Shown here: positions 6,667 through 30,717 of the stretch, one piece after another | Numbering within the stretch: position 1 is the first letter of the stretch | Layout: the number at the start of each line of letters is the position of its first letter | IMG/VR virus record: IMGVR_UViG_3300005613_000273 | Span: 1-31,311 of that record | Strand: one strand, 5' to 3' | DNA: 31,311 nt | DNA from: a virus | Position numbers and translations under genes: made by a program | The notes under the pieces: model-generated | The model's database searches: none | What the model saw: the letters and a program-made list of their open reading frames with translations, nothing else | Told to the model about the DNA's origin: nothing

Positions 6667-6707
6667 CTCACAGTTTGCTACAATCCCTACAACATCACAT
6701 CACGCTC

Positions 6708-7901
6708 ATGAATGACACTTTATTCGCTTCTCTCCAAACCTTTCGCGCAAACCTAAACGCTGCCACGCTCGAACGTGAGTCTGTGGTTGATGGTCTGTTA
6801 GCAACCCTGATAAGCAAGCAAAACGCTTTCTTGTTAGGAGAACCAGGTACAGGTAAATCTGATCTAGTACGGAACATATGTAACGGGATCTCCGGAGCCA
6901 ACTACTTTGGTTATCTTTTAACTCCAACCACCGATCCTTCCGAGATCTTTGGCCCCGTGGCCGTTACCAAACTTCTTAATGACGAGTACACACGCGACGT
7001 TAAGGGGTATCTTCCAGACGCTCACATCGCATTCACGGATGAGTTATTTAGAGGCTCATCCGCTATTCTGAACTCACTGCTAACTCTTTTAAACGAGCGC
7101 ACTTTTAACAATGGAAAAGAAGTTATCCACACTCCGATTCAATCTATTGTTGCAGCAACAAATTCCTGGCCGGATGAAGAATCCCTTCAAGCATTTGCAG
7201 ACAGATTTTTGTTCCGACCCACGGTGGAATTTCTTAAGAAAAGCACATCGAAACGGATCTTGGATGGTTGGGCTCTTGGAGTCGAAGAACGACCTACCGT
7301 AGGTACACACTTAAGTCTTGACACCCTTACACAGTTACAGGACGCCGCTAAACAAATTAAAGTCTCAGATGATTTCGTAGATAAATATGGTGAAGTATGG
7401 GATATGTTAAGTGCCCGTGGTATTACAATTAGTGATCGGCGTCGTGTGCAAGTACTTAAGTTCTTAAGAGCTTGGGCAATTGTTCAAGGAGATGAAGAAC
7501 TTGTACCAGAACATATGCACGACTCTCTGGTTCATATTGTATATAGAACACCCGATGATAAGGAAACTATTAAAGAGATCCTTGATCAAGTGATTCCCAC
7601 GGCTAACAAAATATTTGCCGATGCTAAACGAGCTGCTTCTGGGATAATGACGGAGTATTCAACTACGACTCATAAAGCTCAACTACGTAGTAGTGGAATC
7701 TCTGAGTTAAATGATTTTGTTATTCAGTTACGTAAGTACCATAAAGATATGCAGACAGTCCGAGACAAAGTAGGGGAAGTTATTGATGGGAATAAATATC
7801 GTATGAATCTGAGCACAAGACAGACAGGCGTAAAATTACAGAAACAGCTTGAAAGTTACTGCGAAACGCTGACCGTTGCAATTAGCGACATTAGCAAGTA
7901 A
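6708..7901 (+). CDS. MoxR-family AAA+ ATPase
   Basis: ATG 6708 is preferred over the in-frame TTG at 6675, giving 397 residues. It is a AAA+ ATPase with Walker A GEPGTGKS (about residues 44-51) and Walker B AFTDELFRG with Asp111 and Glu112. The sequence LLTPTTDPSEIFGP between them and the sensor-1 region VAATNSWPDEE match the MoxR/RavA clade. The C-terminal 120 residues are helical and lysine-rich. MoxR ATPases work with VWA-domain partners, as in RavA-ViaA, CbbQ-CbbO and NorQ-NorD, to remodel protein complexes or insert cofactors. A VWA gene lies two genes downstream, so they form a pair. The target is unknown. Confidence 0.92.
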   Translation: MNDTLFASLQTFRANLNAATLERESVVDGLLATLISKQNAFLLGEPGTGKSDLVRNICNGISGANYFGYLLTPTTDPSEIFGPVAVTKLLNDEYTRDVKGYLPDAHIAFTDELFRGSSAILNSLLTLLNERTFNNGKEVIHTPIQSIVAATNSWPDEESLQAFADRFLFRPTVEFLKKSTSKRILDGWALGVEERPTVGTHLSLDTLTQLQDAAKQIKVSDDFVDKYGEVWDMLSARGITISDRRRVQVLKFLRAWAIVQGDEELVPEHMHDSLVHIVYRTPDDKETIKEILDQVIPTANKIFADAKRAASGIMTEYSTTTHKAQLRSSGISELNDFVIQLRKYHKDMQTVRDKVGEVIDGNKYRMNLSTRQTGVKLQKQLESYCETLTVAISDISK

Positions 7902-7926: not shown

Positions 7927-8085
7927 ATGACTGTCAAAACTGAAGACCTAAATCTCGTTCGAAAAAGACTGGCAGACTTTATAGAGTCTGCGGAGGTAAT
8001 CAGTCCTTCAAGTGCTTACGACAAACTTGTAGCTCTATTAGTCGATTTAGATCAAGCCATCATCAGATCCAAAAAACAAACATGA
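7927..8085 (+). CDS. small hypothetical protein between MoxR and VWA (52 aa)
   Basis: ATG 7927 to TGA 8083-8085 gives 52 residues, helical and amphipathic (LVRKRLADFIESAEV, KLVALLVDLDQAII). The stop overlaps the VWA gene's ATG (ATGA), indicating coupling. Its place between ATPase and VWA genes suggests an accessory of the module, but it belongs to no family I recognise. Confidence 0.55.
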   Translation: MTVKTEDLNLVRKRLADFIESAEVISPSSAYDKLVALLVDLDQAIIRSKKQT

Positions 8086-9632
8086 AATTAAACAAACACA
8101 CTGAATTTGTGAGGCTAACTCACAACGAACCTCTAACGCTAGCTTGCTCAGCACTTGCAGATTTTCTTTGGGAAGACTTTGTTGTAGATGGGAAACCTTC
8201 TGTAACTTATCTCATTGATCACTACAACATTAAAAAACTATCCCGCTTTGGCAAAGAGCTTTTCGAACGGTTGTATAACGCAGATGACGTAAACTGGATC
8301 ATTACAGAGCAAGCTTACGAAGATTATTTCAGAGCAAAACAAAATGGAGATGACATTAAATTTCCAGAAGGATATAAGCCTGAGAATGGAATGTGGTATG
8401 CGATTATGTCTGATATTAGTCTTGCCGCTGCTTGGCCTCATTTACTAGCTAGAAGTGTAGGTAATCAATTTAACGCAGGTAACAACGCAATCAATATTTT
8501 AAACCAACTGTCTGAAGTCATAGAAGAGTTAATTGAGAAAGATTTATTGGATGTTCAACTTGTATTCAACGCAGGAGACAAACTAGATGAGTTAAGAAAA
8601 CAATTTCAAGATGCTCAGGCTAAAGGCGATAAAGCTGCAATGGATAAAGCTCGTGCTGAGGGTAAAGAAATTAATCAAGCAATTCAAAACGCCATAGAAG
8701 AACTTAAAGATCAAATAGGATCGCAGACCAGCAGGATTGTAGATAAAACGAATAAAGATTGCGACGAAACAAATAGTTCAATTTCAACTTTGTTTGGAAA
8801 CGAAGAAGGTAAGGGAACCCACGGTGCAGATTTGCAAACTAAGAGAGACTTAGCGGAAAAGTTACAAAGAAACCCCAAGCTAAAAGCACTGGCAAAGAAG
8901 TTAGGTGCTCTCCGAAAAGTGTGGCAAGAACGAAAACGAGCGAAGATAACGAAGTCAACTTACGAAGCAATTAACGGAGCGGTTTTTTCAAATGACATTA
9001 CAAGAGCCTTTCCTGTAGAACTGGCACTAGCTAGTAGTAATGAGGGAAAACTTTTATTTGCATTGAAGTACTCGCAGAAAACTTTGCTTACAAAAGATTA
9101 CAACGCTCACCGAAAAGATATAGGTAAAGGTCCAATAATCATGTATGTAGACACCTCAGGTTCTATGGGTGGAGAACCAGAAGTCTGGTCAAAAGCTATT
9201 TCGTTTGTAATTTCTGAAGAAGCCTTAAAGGAAAATAGAGAAGTTCAGATCTATTTATTTGATACACGAATTGAACAGGGTGTAATCTTGAAGGGAAATA
9301 GAAAAACAAACAAAGAATTACTTGACTTTGTAGGCACTTGGCATCTCGGCGGAGGTACAAGTTTTAACTCCGTAATCTCCCACGCGGTCGAACTAACAAA
9401 GACCCAGGATCGTTCAGACATTCTTTTGATTACGGATGGTTATTCAGACGTTCGAGACTCTAATATGAGAGCGCTTCGGTCCCTCAAACAAAGGACAGGA
9501 GCCATGTGGAGTACAATCTGTATCGGAACACATGTTCCGGATATAGTGCATGAGTTTTCAGATGAAGCTTATGCGGTCGACATTTCTGCTCACGCAGAAA
9601 CCATTGACGTTATCCAAAAATGTATTAGGTGA
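8082..9632 (+). CDS. VWA-domain protein, partner of the MoxR ATPase
   Basis: The 516-residue protein has a long helical N-terminal region, with coiled-coil stretches around 150-290. A C-terminal von Willebrand A domain begins near residue 350. The MIDAS metal site is intact: DTSGS (Asp357, Ser359, Ser361), Thr426 in GGGTSF and Asp452 in ITDGYSD. This layout matches ViaA/CobT-like partners of MoxR ATPases. It is probably cytoplasmic, since no signal peptide is seen. The gene is coupled to the small ORF upstream, and its own stop overlaps the region of the next gene's start. Confidence 0.9.
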   Translation: MKLNKHTEFVRLTHNEPLTLACSALADFLWEDFVVDGKPSVTYLIDHYNIKKLSRFGKELFERLYNADDVNWIITEQAYEDYFRAKQNGDDIKFPEGYKPENGMWYAIMSDISLAAAWPHLLARSVGNQFNAGNNAINILNQLSEVIEELIEKDLLDVQLVFNAGDKLDELRKQFQDAQAKGDKAAMDKARAEGKEINQAIQNAIEELKDQIGSQTSRIVDKTNKDCDETNSSISTLFGNEEGKGTHGADLQTKRDLAEKLQRNPKLKALAKKLGALRKVWQERKRAKITKSTYEAINGAVFSNDITRAFPVELALASSNEGKLLFALKYSQKTLLTKDYNAHRKDIGKGPIIMYVDTSGSMGGEPEVWSKAISFVISEEALKENREVQIYLFDTRIEQGVILKGNRKTNKELLDFVGTWHLGGGTSFNSVISHAVELTKTQDRSDILLITDGYSDVRDSNMRALRSLKQRTGAMWSTICIGTHVPDIVHEFSDEAYAVDISAHAETIDVIQKCIR

Positions 9633-14969: not shown

Positions 14970-16322
14970 GTGGCTTATTTTTTCGGTGGAAAACGATTAG
15001 AACCAGGTAAGCCTTTTTCGGCTGGGGATACAATGTTCCCAGAAAACTATTTAGATTTGTCCACGCCGGAAGAAAGAAAAGCTCTTGGTATAACAGAACA
15101 AGAAGATGCAGAACCAATTCGGATAGCTGGTGAAGGCCCTACCTCACCAACAGAAGAAACCTCTCCAACAAATACAGCCAATACAACTTCTTTTCCAGAA
15201 ACAGATATTGATGACTCAACTAAACAATTTTTAGACTCTTTAGGACAAGATTTTTTTGATCAATATGTTAAACCTCAATATGCAGGTGATAAATTTAATG
15301 TACAAGAAGGCAGACTTAGCTACAACAAACCAGAGCACCAAAAAGGAGGTGTAATAAGATATGCAAGACCTGATAAGATTACTCCTCCGCCTACAGAGTT
15401 TTTACCTACTACAGGAGGAACACCTACTACAGGGGGAACACCTACTACACCTACTACACCTACTACACCTACATTTACGCCCCCACCTGGCGCTTCCCCT
15501 TCTATAACCTACCCTTCAGCACCGGATTTTAAAGCAGAAACTCCTTCTTCCGGGGGTGATGATGGCGGAGGTGATGATGGCGGAAGAGATAACCCTCCTT
15601 TAACTGAATCTCCAGGCGAAGATCCAAAAGAAACATTTAAAGTTCCAGACCCTACTCCTACACCTGACACTACTCCTACACCTGACGCTACTCCTGCGCC
15701 CAAAGCCACGCCACAAATTATGGCGATGGAGAGGTTCTTCAACCCTAGTGAAGGTTTACACTTCTTTACTTCAAACCCTGCGAACGAAACACTAGGCGGT
15801 TATGGAGGAGAAGGAAAAGCATTTAACCTCTACGCAGACTCAAATTTGGCTGAGGGAGCAACCGATGTATTCCGTTTGTTTAACCCCCAAAGCGGAGATC
15901 ACTTATTTACCACGAGTAAAGAAGAGGCTGATGCAGCATCAGCGGGAGGTTATAGAGCAGAAGGCGTTGCTGGAGAAGCTTACACAGAACGGAGAGAAGG
16001 CACGGAGGCAGTGGAGCGGTATTACAACCCAAACACAGGAGGTCACCTATTAACTAGTGATCCCGAAGAACAAAAAACGTTAGGATCTCTAGGTTATAAC
16101 TATGAAGGGACTGCTTTTTACGCTCCTGCACAAACCGCCAGGGAGTCAAGTAAACCAGCAGAATCACAACCAAATGCGGTCGAACAATATTGGCAAGCTG
16201 CAAATAGTCCCCCCAAAACAGAACAAAACGAGCCAGAAAATTGGGGAGGAAGCTACCAATTTGGGGGTTGGGATGAAAATGGAAATACTATATATGTTCC
16301 TGTAAATGACAGTGGAAATTAA
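14970..16322 (+). CDS. tail-fibre/adhesin-like protein with DUF5648-type repeats
   Basis: GTG 14970 start, 450 residues. The N-terminus (PFSAGDTMFPENYLDLSTPE) matches the N-terminus of the 30100-30717 protein. Residues 140-235 are Pro/Thr/Gly low-complexity with near-perfect TPTT repeats. Residues 251-390 hold three repeats of the form RxFNPxxGxHxxTxxxxE...GGYxxEG, the pattern of the DUF5648 repeat of surface adhesins and glycan-binding proteins. The C-terminal tail is Gln/Asn-rich. No signal peptide. I read it as a virion receptor-binding or head-decoration protein. Its place among replication genes is odd. Confidence 0.75.
   Translation: MAYFFGGKRLEPGKPFSAGDTMFPENYLDLSTPEERKALGITEQEDAEPIRIAGEGPTSPTEETSPTNTANTTSFPETDIDDSTKQFLDSLGQDFFDQYVKPQYAGDKFNVQEGRLSYNKPEHQKGGVIRYARPDKITPPPTEFLPTTGGTPTTGGTPTTPTTPTTPTFTPPPGASPSITYPSAPDFKAETPSSGGDDGGGDDGGRDNPPLTESPGEDPKETFKVPDPTPTPDTTPTPDATPAPKATPQIMAMERFFNPSEGLHFFTSNPANETLGGYGGEGKAFNLYADSNLAEGATDVFRLFNPQSGDHLFTTSKEEADAASAGGYRAEGVAGEAYTERREGTEAVERYYNPNTGGHLLTSDPEEQKTLGSLGYNYEGTAFYAPAQTARESSKPAESQPNAVEQYWQAANSPPKTEQNEPENWGGSYQFGGWDENGNTIYVPVNDSGN
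15403..15475 (+). repeat. tandem repeats coding for the Pro/Thr linker
   Basis: Repeats of ACACCTACT with some GGAGGA inserts code for TPT and TGGTPT units in the adhesin. A second array (CCTACTCCTACACCTGAC, 15649-15690) codes for PTPTPD. Such low-complexity DNA tends to vary in length between relatives and probably makes a flexible linker. Confidence 0.7.
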
Positions 16323-17516: not shown

Positions 17517-18335
17517 ATGGTTTTTATTGCCGGTAAATTCTCCGAAGACGAAATTCTCGCCAACGTTCCTCCCCACACACTACGAATTGACCTTCAAGCT
17601 CGCCGTTGGAAATCTGATGTAGACTCTGACTCTGCAATTATCGATGCAAACGATAACGGCATTCCAATTGAATTCATCCTTTTAGGTTTTACTCCCTATT
17701 ACGGAAACCTTGGAATGCGGAACCAAGAAGAGTTCATGCGTATTGCTTTTATCGGTGTAACTCCGAAGCACCGGCTTTTGCCGCCACGCTGTGTGACTAC
17801 CGCGATGATCTCGGGTAAGTCCAGTCAAAAGAATTTTATCTCTTATTTTCAAACCCTGTACAACAACAGGATTAACTGCGCTTCAGTGATCACGTCTAGT
17901 AAGTTTGTGACTCGTTCTTTTAACGAACGGGATCCTGTAACGGGAGCAGACGGTGCCAAGATTAATTTTAATGCCTTGGAGTTTAAGGACCGTCCGGCTC
18001 AAAATGAGCTTGAAGAAAAATTGGTCGAGGACGTTATCGCGTGGCTTGATTCGACGGGAACTGAATCTGTAGTGCATTGCTTGAAATCTCACATCCCTGG
18101 TTCGGACTTGGTAGAGCTGCCCCTTGGCTCAGATCACTCTGAGATTAAAGCTCAGTTTGCCGCTGCAAGGCCGCAAGCTTTAGAGGGAACAGGAGTGGCT
18201 CGTATGTTTGCTCCTGTTGCTGCTCCAGCAGCAGAGGATGTAATCGTAGTTAAACCCGAACCCCCGCAGCCGAAACGAAAAAAAGCTGTTGAGCTTACGG
18301 AAGAACAGGCCAAAGCTTTAGGAGTTGATTTTTAG
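17517..18335 (+). CDS. hypothetical replication-region protein (272 aa)
   Basis: ATG 17517, 15 bases after the SSB-like stop, encodes 272 residues. Residues 1-190 look alpha/beta (GIPIEFILLGFTPYYGNLGM; FMRIAFIGVTPKHRLLPPR), followed by a Pro/Ala-rich linker and a Lys-rich region. It ends LTEEQAKALGVDF. The short acidic, hydrophobic end resembles protein-interaction tips of replication proteins, but this is inference. A terminator follows, so it closes the polymerase unit. The family is not recognised. Confidence 0.65.
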   Translation: MVFIAGKFSEDEILANVPPHTLRIDLQARRWKSDVDSDSAIIDANDNGIPIEFILLGFTPYYGNLGMRNQEEFMRIAFIGVTPKHRLLPPRCVTTAMISGKSSQKNFISYFQTLYNNRINCASVITSSKFVTRSFNERDPVTGADGAKINFNALEFKDRPAQNELEEKLVEDVIAWLDSTGTESVVHCLKSHIPGSDLVELPLGSDHSEIKAQFAAARPQALEGTGVARMFAPVAAPAAEDVIVVKPEPPQPKRKKAVELTEEQAKALGVDF

Positions 18336-18403: not shown

Positions 18404-18757
18404 ATGTTTTGCCCAAACCCAGACTGCAACAGCGTTGTCACTAACGTTTTAACAGTCCGTCAGAAAAAAAACGGAAAAACCAGGCGTCGCTTTTGTCCCA
18501 CGTGCGGTTTAAAATTTACGACAGAAGAGATTTTGTTAGTAAAAGATGGTCATAAATTAATAAATCCTTATAAAAAAGAAAGCAGAAACAGACAAGGTTC
18601 TTGTAATCCAGGAGCAATCTTAACAGATACAAATGTTAGAGATTTGAGAAGATTATATAGAGAAGGCAAGACTCAAAAAGAATTGAGCATCAAATACGGT
18701 ATGAGCAAAACTCAAATATATAGAATTATTCATCGCTTGAGCTGGAAGAACATTTAG
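18404..18757 (+). CDS. NrdR-like zinc ribbon fused to HTH, probable regulator
   Basis: The 117-residue protein starts with a four-Cys zinc ribbon (Cys3, Cys8, Cys31, Cys34). The spacing and signature (RRRFCPTCGLKFTTEE) closely copy the NrdR zinc finger, but it lacks the NrdR ATP-cone. Residues 76-112 form a resolvase-type helix-turn-helix (GKTQKELSIKYGMSKTQIYR). It should be a DNA-binding regulator of phage or host genes. The 3' end overlaps the convergent nblA gene by 32 bases. Confidence 0.7.
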   Translation: MFCPNPDCNSVVTNVLTVRQKKNGKTRRRFCPTCGLKFTTEEILLVKDGHKLINPYKKESRNRQGSCNPGAILTDTNVRDLRRLYREGKTQKELSIKYGMSKTQIYRIIHRLSWKNI

Positions 18758-19004
18758 TAGAGTTTCGTTTTAACGGATGGTCAACTTCACGTGGAGTTAA
18801 AAGTTCCGTTAACGGAGGAAGCATCACGCCAGAACGAACACACCAAGAAGACAAAGCCGAGAATAAACGTTTATGTAACAAATGTTGTCTATGTACCATT
18901 TCAAAAACCTCTATAAGTTGTTCTTTGTCCAGCTTCCTAGCGTCCCTGAGAACTCGCTGGTGTAAAAAATTCTGTTCTGTATCGAGCCACTCAAGATTTA
19001 ACAT
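18726..19004 (-). CDS. nblA: NblA-like phycobilisome degradation adaptor
   Basis: The minus-strand frame from ATG 19004 encodes 92 residues. Residues 8-52 (DTEQNFLHQRVLRDARKLDK, then EQLIEVFEMVHRQHLLHKRL) align without gaps to NblA as I recall it from Synechococcus. Shared positions include the EQxF motif (Glu10, Gln11, Phe13), a Leu/Phe pair, and an RQ followed by H and F. NblA binds phycobiliproteins and hands them to the ClpC protease, dismantling the light-harvesting antenna; freshwater and marine cyanophages carry it. This copy has a C-terminal extension (60-92, Ser-rich) beyond the usual ~60 residues. It has its own promoter (19027-19055). Confidence 0.65.
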   Translation of the reverse strand: MLNLEWLDTEQNFLHQRVLRDARKLDKEQLIEVFEMVHRQHLLHKRLFSALSSWCVRSGVMLPPLTELLTPREVDHPLKRNSTKCSSSSSDE

Positions 19005-19026: not shown

Positions 19027-19055
19027 ACTATAACCATTCCTCAGTAGACAGGCAA
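19027..19055 (-). promoter_or_regulatory. promoter for nblA
   Basis: On the minus strand, TATAGT (19027-19032, 5 of 6) lies 17 bases from TTGCCT (19050-19055, 4 of 6). The nblA ATG (19004) is 22 bases past the -10. The -35 overlaps the dyad at 19047-19065. Confidence 0.55.
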
Positions 19056-19073: not shown

Positions 19074-19637
19074 ATGAATCTCCACATGATCCTCATGACC
19101 GACTTTTATGTAGTTCCAGATGGGGTGACCCATACGCTGATTAAGCACACGTTTATATCGGGAAACATCTTAGTTCCTTACGATCCGCAACACGTTTTAA
19201 GCACACAACTTCAAAAACATAAATATACAGTCACAACAAATGAAGACCCTAATAACTTATTAGATCCTATCTGGTGGGTGTCCATGCGAGAGAAAAAATA
19301 CGATTGGGTCGTCTGCTCAACCATGGGTTTAAAAGACTACAGTGAATACATAATGGAATACGGAATGTCAATAGCGACTAATGGCATTGCTCTTTTAGAT
19401 AGGTTATCTTTCTTAGAACCGGTGTTTAAACGAAGAACATTCCTTCTAAAGAATAAATTATCGAACATGGTTGTTTTGTCGCCACGGCCAAAATTTCGAG
19501 CTGTAGGTTCGACTAAAGACTCTGTAACAGCTTGTTGGTTTGTTTTCCAAAAACCGGACAAGTGGATGGATGGCACGATGATCAGTTACGCAGTAAATTG
19601 GGAAAACATCGGAGCCCTTCCGGAACTTCCAACATGA
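19074..19637 (+). CDS. degenerate DNA methyltransferase-like protein
   Basis: The 187-residue protein resembles the C-terminal half of phage adenine-N6 methyltransferases. DRLSFLEPVFKRR is followed by VVLSPRPKF, then ACWFVFQKPD, in the order typical of those enzymes. The catalytic (N/D)PPY motif, expected in the segment YDWVVCSTMGLKD, is replaced by CSTM, and the SAM-binding N-terminal part is missing. It is probably inactive as an enzyme and may keep a DNA-binding role. The next gene overlaps its stop (ATGA). Confidence 0.55.
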   Translation: MNLHMILMTDFYVVPDGVTHTLIKHTFISGNILVPYDPQHVLSTQLQKHKYTVTTNEDPNNLLDPIWWVSMREKKYDWVVCSTMGLKDYSEYIMEYGMSIATNGIALLDRLSFLEPVFKRRTFLLKNKLSNMVVLSPRPKFRAVGSTKDSVTACWFVFQKPDKWMDGTMISYAVNWENIGALPELPT

Positions 19638-29250: not shown

Positions 29251-30105
29251 ATGTCCACAACACTTCAACTTGCCTGGGTCCAGTTCAAAGCCGAACGAGC
29301 TGTCACTCTTTGTCCTACGAGTTTAACCGCAGATTATAAGCAGGTAGAAAAGTGGATAAACCGATGTCCAATCACAAATTTGGAAGAAGGCCGCCAAGTT
29401 ATGACTTGGGTACTAGGACAAAAACCGATTAAATCAAGTCGCAGAGTCGCTATGTACGTAAAAAGTCTCTACAAGTGGGCCGCTAGCGAAGACATTGCTT
29501 TATTAACAAAAAATCCTATAACAACTTTTAAAATGCCAAAACCTCCTCAAGAAGATATCGATGTTATCGTTATTCCTCAAAAAGAAACTTCAATAGTTTT
29601 AAGTGCTTTAGCCTCACGTTTTACAAGAAATGGGGCTAATTGGGCTCACTATGCAGAATTTATGCTTCAAACAGCAATGCGTACAGGCGAAGTCCGAGCC
29701 TTAAAGTGGGATGATATAAAAGAAAATAAAATATTAGTACATTGCAACTACACTTTAACCCACGGGCACAAAGATTCCACAAAAACAAACCGTAAGCGTT
29801 GGGTTCCTCTGAACTCAAGGGCTCAAGAGATCATACAACAAACTAAAAAAGTTGAAGATTATATATTTCCTTGGAATAGACTTGCTTTTCAGAGTTACTT
29901 TTACGACAGGATGTGTGAGCTGCACTCAACAGGTGCAATTGAAAACAGATATAGACCTTATGATCTGAGACACACGGCAATTAGTCGCTGGCTAGAGGCA
30001 CAAATCCCGGTGGCTCAAGTTGCAAATTGGGCAGGTAATAGCTCCGAAATTATCTGGCAACATTATGTAAACGTCACTAAAGAATACGAAATGCCCCTTT
30101 TATAG
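29251..30105 (+). CDS. int: tyrosine recombinase (integrase)
   Basis: ATG 29251, 284 residues. A SAM-like core-binding N-terminal half precedes the catalytic domain. Catalytic positions: Arg149 (TGEVRALKW), Lys178 (DSTKTN), Tyr237-Asp-Leu-Arg240 (box II, normally HxxR), Asn263 (AGNSS, normally GHSS) and Tyr272 (HYVN). The box II His is Tyr and the GH His is Asn. The GN form is known in cyanobacterial integrase-like proteins, so activity is plausible. It would mediate site-specific integration. It overlaps the convergent tail-fibre-like gene by 6 bases. Confidence 0.9.
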   Translation: MSTTLQLAWVQFKAERAVTLCPTSLTADYKQVEKWINRCPITNLEEGRQVMTWVLGQKPIKSSRRVAMYVKSLYKWAASEDIALLTKNPITTFKMPKPPQEDIDVIVIPQKETSIVLSALASRFTRNGANWAHYAEFMLQTAMRTGEVRALKWDDIKENKILVHCNYTLTHGHKDSTKTNRKRWVPLNSRAQEIIQQTKKVEDYIFPWNRLAFQSYFYDRMCELHSTGAIENRYRPYDLRHTAISRWLEAQIPVAQVANWAGNSSEIIWQHYVNVTKEYEMPLL

Positions 30106-30717
30106 AATTATTGTGTCTTCGCCACTGCTGCCAAATAAAACTGAACTACTGATTCCACCTGTGCTGCTTACACCAGTAAATATGGCATCTGTGCTTACTC
30201 CGGTAAGCCCGGAATCAGAAGTGCTTCCTGTAGCGGTCTCACTCACAACTACAGGTTGTTCTTGAGGAGGCCAAACAGGATAACCAGAACCGGTGATGTA
30301 AGTCGCTAGTTCGTCAGTAGTTGTAGTTGTGGTTATATAAACTACTTTTTCGTTACAACATGTACGTACATTTTGACGCCAAGATTGAACCCCGCTTGGG
30401 ACAGGTGTTCCGTTATCAACCATACGAACCACGGCCCAATCGGAAGGGCTTAAAAGAGTATTTGCAGTCGTTCTTGTTTGATCTACCCAACCTGAAACTA
30501 ATACACCGTGATCTTTTGGAATTAAAGTTCCGCTGGCGGTATAACCCCAATAAAAGCGCTGATCGTAATAAGGACTAGGAGGATCAGGAACCTCAGTTAT
30601 ACCTATTGCTGTTCTTTCCTCAGGGGAAGCTAAACGCAACCAATTTGCAGGGTAAAGAGTATCCCCTGCTTCAAAAGGAACATCTAGTGGTAAAGGGTGG
30701 CCGTTTAAAACAAACAC
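30100..30717 (-). CDS. tail-fibre-like virion protein (205 aa)
   Basis: GTG 30717, 205 residues. The N-terminus (PFEAGDTLYPANWLRLASPE) shares a motif with the 14970 adhesin: PFxAGDTxxPxNxLxL, then PEERxAxGITE. A middle section (YYDQRFYWG; LVSGWVDQTRTTANTLLSP; DWAVVRMVDNG) resembles a domain of phage tail-fibre and tail-tip proteins. The Thr/Ser/Gly-rich C-terminus looks unstructured or beta-rich. No signal peptide. It is read as a receptor-binding or tail protein. Confidence 0.7.
   Translation of the reverse strand: MFVLNGHPLPLDVPFEAGDTLYPANWLRLASPEERTAIGITEVPDPPSPYYDQRFYWGYTASGTLIPKDHGVLVSGWVDQTRTTANTLLSPSDWAVVRMVDNGTPVPSGVQSWRQNVRTCCNEKVVYITTTTTTDELATYITGSGYPVWPPQEQPVVVSETATGSTSDSGLTGVSTDAIFTGVSSTGGISSSVLFGSSGEDTIIL

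Follow-up and report, generated by a model that had tools for sequence, protein, structure and literature searches.

The window analysed here is the whole 31,311-nucleotide stretch of IMG/VR virus record IMGVR_UViG_3300005613_000273. Its minus strand carries a 92-amino-acid open reading frame (ORF) that resembles the protein NblA (Table 1). Relatives of this ORF are numerous in IMG/VR (36 close, and 108 in a wider set). In 30 of the 30 contigs compared, it occupies the same genomic slot, flanked by homologues of the two fixed neighbours listed in Table 1 and oriented opposite to them. Pooled pN/pS within the family is approximately 0.10 for residues 2-52, which comprise the core, and 0.25 for the extension at residues 53-78. 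Because of these relatives, the fixed slot and the pN/pS values, the ORF is a real, conserved gene under strong purifying selection, and a chance ORF is ruled out.

Table 1. Features of the NblA-like locus in the window, and NblA-like genes of related phages
Feature	Position	Strand	Basis or remark
NblA-like gene, 92 amino acids	18726..19004	(-)	ATG at 19004, stop TAA at 18726-18728; >100 relatives, kept position, pN/pS
NblA-like core, residues 7-52 (EQxF region, turn at 24-26, two helices)	18849..18986	(-)	Ungapped NblA alignment and AlphaFold2 helices
Conserved C-terminal extension, residues 53-78, WCxxxxVxLPxFxELL	18771..18848	(-)	Family alignments, divergent members, pN/pS 0.25
Variable Ser/Asp/Glu-rich tail, residues 79-92	18729..18770	(-)	Low AlphaFold2 model confidence
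Helix-turn-helix/HNH-like gene, converging on NblA-like gene	18404..18757	(+)	3' end overlaps NblA-like gene by 32 bases; only in close subgroup
Divergent neighbour, fixed flank of NblA-like gene	19074..19637	(+)	Weak DNA methyltransferase profile match
Other fixed flank of NblA-like gene	17517..18335	(+)	No function assigned
Putative sigma-70-type promoter for NblA-like gene, TTGCCT-17-TATAGT	19027..19055	(-)	Recurrence of -10-like box; weak
Second NblA-like family, examples	L112:7265-7513, L115:5881-6132, L122:3867-4115 (-), L128:667-918		
NblA-like ORF of S-EIV1, AHV82245.1	KJ410740.1 73902-74222 (L260:34903-35223)		Annotated hypothetical; acidic C-terminal tail

The gene that converges on the NblA-like gene is missing from the same slot in other relatives, and is perhaps a mobile insertion. 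The putative promoter lies in the 69-base gap between the NblA-like gene and its divergent neighbour, and an upstream alignment places a -10-like box at the same position in most relatives. Because matches to the promoter consensus are no commoner than in shuffled sequence, the evidence for this promoter is weak.

Affiliation of the virus

No near DNA match to the window was found among isolate phages. Kinship with Synechococcus phage S-EIV1 is suggested by the primase and by a virion-region protein of relative G001, and kinship with Pseudanabaena phages by the DNA polymerase. Homologues of S-EIV1 genes account for 10 genes of the window and about 25 genes of G001, although the kinship is distant. 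Judged from these similarities, the virus and S-EIV1 are distantly related. Because it is akin to S-EIV1 and other cyanophages, its host is likely a phycobilisome-bearing cyanobacterium, and this kinship supports the cyanobacterial side of the host inference in the sequence-only reading. The gene psbA, sought as a host marker, was not found in 28 related contigs. A search for a close prophage by means of the primase recovered just proteins of ~30% identity from cyanobacterial genomes, and the window gave no match to Rfam and no tRNA.

Some other genes of the window have features of their own. Positions 6675-7901 and 8082-9632 hold adjacent genes for a MoxR-type ATPase and a protein with a VWA-like DxSxS motif, present in nearly all relatives. 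Related N-terminal regions are shared by the products of 14970-16322 and 30100-30717, both of which hit the same ORFs in relatives, a pattern that would fit duplication of a module. A tyrosine integrase gene (29251-30105), with homologues in some relatives only, suggests temperate potential.

Relationship to NblA

In cyanobacterial hosts, the protein NblA tags the light-harvesting antennae for breakdown. When 24,736 Pfam families were searched, NblA (PF04485) was the sole match to the 92-amino-acid ORF (E=0.047), at 14.6 bits against a curated cut-off of 25 bits. Because the ORF alone falls under this cut-off, its identity as NblA rests on its family. Six of the first eight family members match Pfam NblA; one full-length member, L357, exceeds the cut-off (25.6 bits), as do two further contigs (25.4 bits each). 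A Pfam match above the cut-off was thus obtained for members of the family but not for the ORF itself. The best sequence match in the PDB is likewise an NblA, 3cs5 (E=0.071 for the ORF alone, E=0.007 for the family profile). As a yardstick, accepted NblA structures score just ~20-23 bits against each other.

In a profile-profile comparison, the window family and NblA align over 48 gap-free columns with 29% identity (E=1.6e-5). The score is 31.8, whereas 300 column-shuffled alignments reach at most 19.1 and the reversed alignment reaches 11.4. Over residues 7-52 the alignment is ungapped, as the sequence-only reading had described for the EQxF, RQ, H and F positions: among 39 aligned relatives, E10, Q11, F13, H38 and F48 are invariant, and Q40 is nearly so. 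Among the 22,344 unique ORFs in all the loci retrieved (a pool enriched for NblA-like families owing to how the loci were chosen), a profile of cellular NblA matched at E<=10 only cellular NblA, the window family, the family of an S-EIV1 ORF and one further phage family.

It is conceivable that the ORF encodes an unrelated small helical phage protein, such as a regulator or anti-defence protein, whose likeness to NblA arose by chance. Individual scores are indeed weak. The window ORF is near the bottom of the NblA-profile matches, its near-identical copy L040 is at E=0.078, and some members (for example, L070) score nothing. In a reverse search of 386 cyanobacterial genomes, the family profile gave weak matches (E about 0.005), and the best two were a bona fide nblA and an unrelated short ORF (L212). 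Nevertheless, the specificity for NblA among all Pfam families, the shuffle control, the lack of decoys in the ORF pool and the member above the Pfam cut-off make a chance resemblance very improbable. Sequence evidence therefore supports the ORF as a divergent NblA homologue. No full-length member of its family turned up in the 386 cyanobacterial genomes or in a GTDB pattern scan, and the family goes unrecognised by PHROGs and NCBIfam.

AlphaFold2, given the 39 relatives, predicts helices at residues 9-23 and 27-58, which form a helix-turn-helix. Block-mean pLDDT is 82-90 over residues 11-60 (mean pLDDT 73.5, pTM 0.42). The predicted turn at residues 24-26 coincides with the MS turn of aligned NblA. 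Foldseek and VIA-align comparisons of this model with the PDB gave no useful match of any kind, NblA included; Foldseek is weak for such small hairpins. Both the NblA signal and the two-helix hairpin on which the sequence-only reading had staked its case are present, the hairpin as a prediction.

In common with cellular NblA (PF04485; 3cs5, 1ojh, 2q8v, 2qdo), the window family has the ungapped EQxF core, the predicted helix-turn-helix and the position of the turn. Unlike cellular NblA, to which profile identity is ~29%, it carries 20-40 extra C-terminal residues, in part conserved and in part variable, and lacks the KHxWG ending.

C-terminal extension and additional NblA-like genes

The motif WCxxxxVxLPxFxELL follows the core in nearly all members, often succeeded by HP and then by a variable tail. 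Sampled cellular NblA proteins stop shortly after KHxWG, in the region where the window family has WCxxxx. An extension had been noted from the sequence, at about 30 residues; it is real but rather longer, with ~40 residues past the core, of which ~26 are conserved and the rest are variable and rich in Ser, Asp and Glu. Homology, phage context and extension are all supported in the original NblA interpretation. Its weaker points are the sub-threshold score of the ORF taken alone and the phycobilisome breakdown and amino-acid supply that it presumes.

The literature assigns ClpC binding to a motif close to the N terminus of NblA, and phycobiliprotein binding to one close to its C terminus (PMC4103541). 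With these motifs placed on the alignment, the window family appears to keep the ClpC-docking region and to change the phycobiliprotein-binding one, and the C-terminal half is the part least like NblA. An NblA-derived adaptor that still docks on ClpC might therefore, through its conserved C-terminal motif, redirect host Clp to a different substrate, delivering another host or phage protein instead of phycobilisomes; another NblA-like protein of the phage might take part. Retention of the EQxF end, replacement of the phycobiliprotein-binding end by a different conserved motif under constraint, and the frequency of a second, different NblA-like gene in related genomes would fit such retargeting. 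However, divergent phage NblAs are still able to act on phycobilisomes (PMC9602691), and no alternative target is known. We consider retargeting doubtful, both as an account of the protein and as a role for its motif.

The second NblA-like family consists of proteins of ~83 amino acids (LTLEDEF...RERAY), found at 59 IMG/VR loci in the late region of related phages. In several relatives, the gene adjoins a transglycosylase gene. It occurs together with the window family in six contigs, and also in 11 of 16 further contigs that bear the second gene. This co-occurrence raises the question of whether the window protein needs the second protein as a heterodimer partner in order to function. A precedent exists in Synechocystis, which requires an NblA1/NblA2 heterodimer according to Baier 2014 as cited in PMC7966870. 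Yet the second gene is located in the late, virion region, so the timing of the two genes may differ, and no second NblA-like gene was seen in the window, which is a genome fragment. We therefore regard an obligate heterodimer as quite unlikely.

A third family is typified by the S-EIV1 ORF in Table 1. It has 31 IMG/VR relatives; profile comparison of the family with NblA gave a probability of 96 (E=2.3e-9), and one member, L280, scores above the Pfam NblA cut-off (26.5 bits).

Proposed role and comparison with known phage NblAs

We favour the interpretation that the gene product is a divergent proteolysis adaptor of the NblA type, carried by a cyanophage related to S-EIV1, and that it probably promotes phycobilisome breakdown. 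Its N-terminal part retains the EQxF region and the predicted helix-turn-helix core. By analogy with NblA, the N-terminal motif would dock on the host ClpC chaperone and the C-terminal half would grip a phycobiliprotein. The host Clp protease could then dismantle phycobilisomes, which would free amino acids and lower light absorption during infection. The extension may add to or alter the target-binding end. Early expression is suggested by the location of the gene in the midst of replication genes, where it may have a promoter to itself.

Known phage NblAs cause loss of phycobilins when they are expressed in cyanobacteria (PMC9602691). The nblA of Microcystis phage Ma-LMM01 lies in a DNA-processing region and is expressed early (PMC4103541). 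Its product (YP_851019.1) and relatives are, like the window protein, phage-borne and encoded among DNA-metabolism genes. However, the Ma-LMM01 protein scores 51.8 bits against Pfam NblA and ends soon after the core, whereas the window family has diverged much further and is extended. The sequence-only reading had placed known phage NblAs in freshwater Microcystis and Planktothrix phages and one marine example. This list is incomplete, as marine cyanopodoviruses and cyanomyoviruses also belong on it: NblAs are predicted in marine cyanopodoviruses, S-TIM5, S-SCSM1 and uncultured marine cyanophages (PMC9602691). These homologues, too, were detected partly through remote homology, but a tblastn search with the window family found no member among isolate phages, marine ones included, at E<=10. 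Phage NblA is thus already known; against the cellular and isolate-phage NblAs compared, the window gene represents a new, divergent and widespread NblA family with a conserved extension.

These findings extend phage NblA to a widespread group of uncultured viruses related to S-EIV1. Normal search cut-offs miss the window family, so that counts of phages attacking light harvesting are probably too low. With its conserved extension and the second gene that often accompanies it, the family also offers a way to ask whether phages turn NblA against phycobilisomes only or use it as a general Clp adaptor scaffold. Since S-EIV1 has been isolated and its host is in culture, the wider NblA-like set includes a member that is open to experiment. 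Its ORF, from a related virus, shares the NblA core and a C-terminal extension with the window protein, but belongs to a separate family (with a weak profile score to the window family) and lies in the late region. A 2017 survey gave the S-EIV1 reference genome without a listed photosynthetic gene (PMC5332604).
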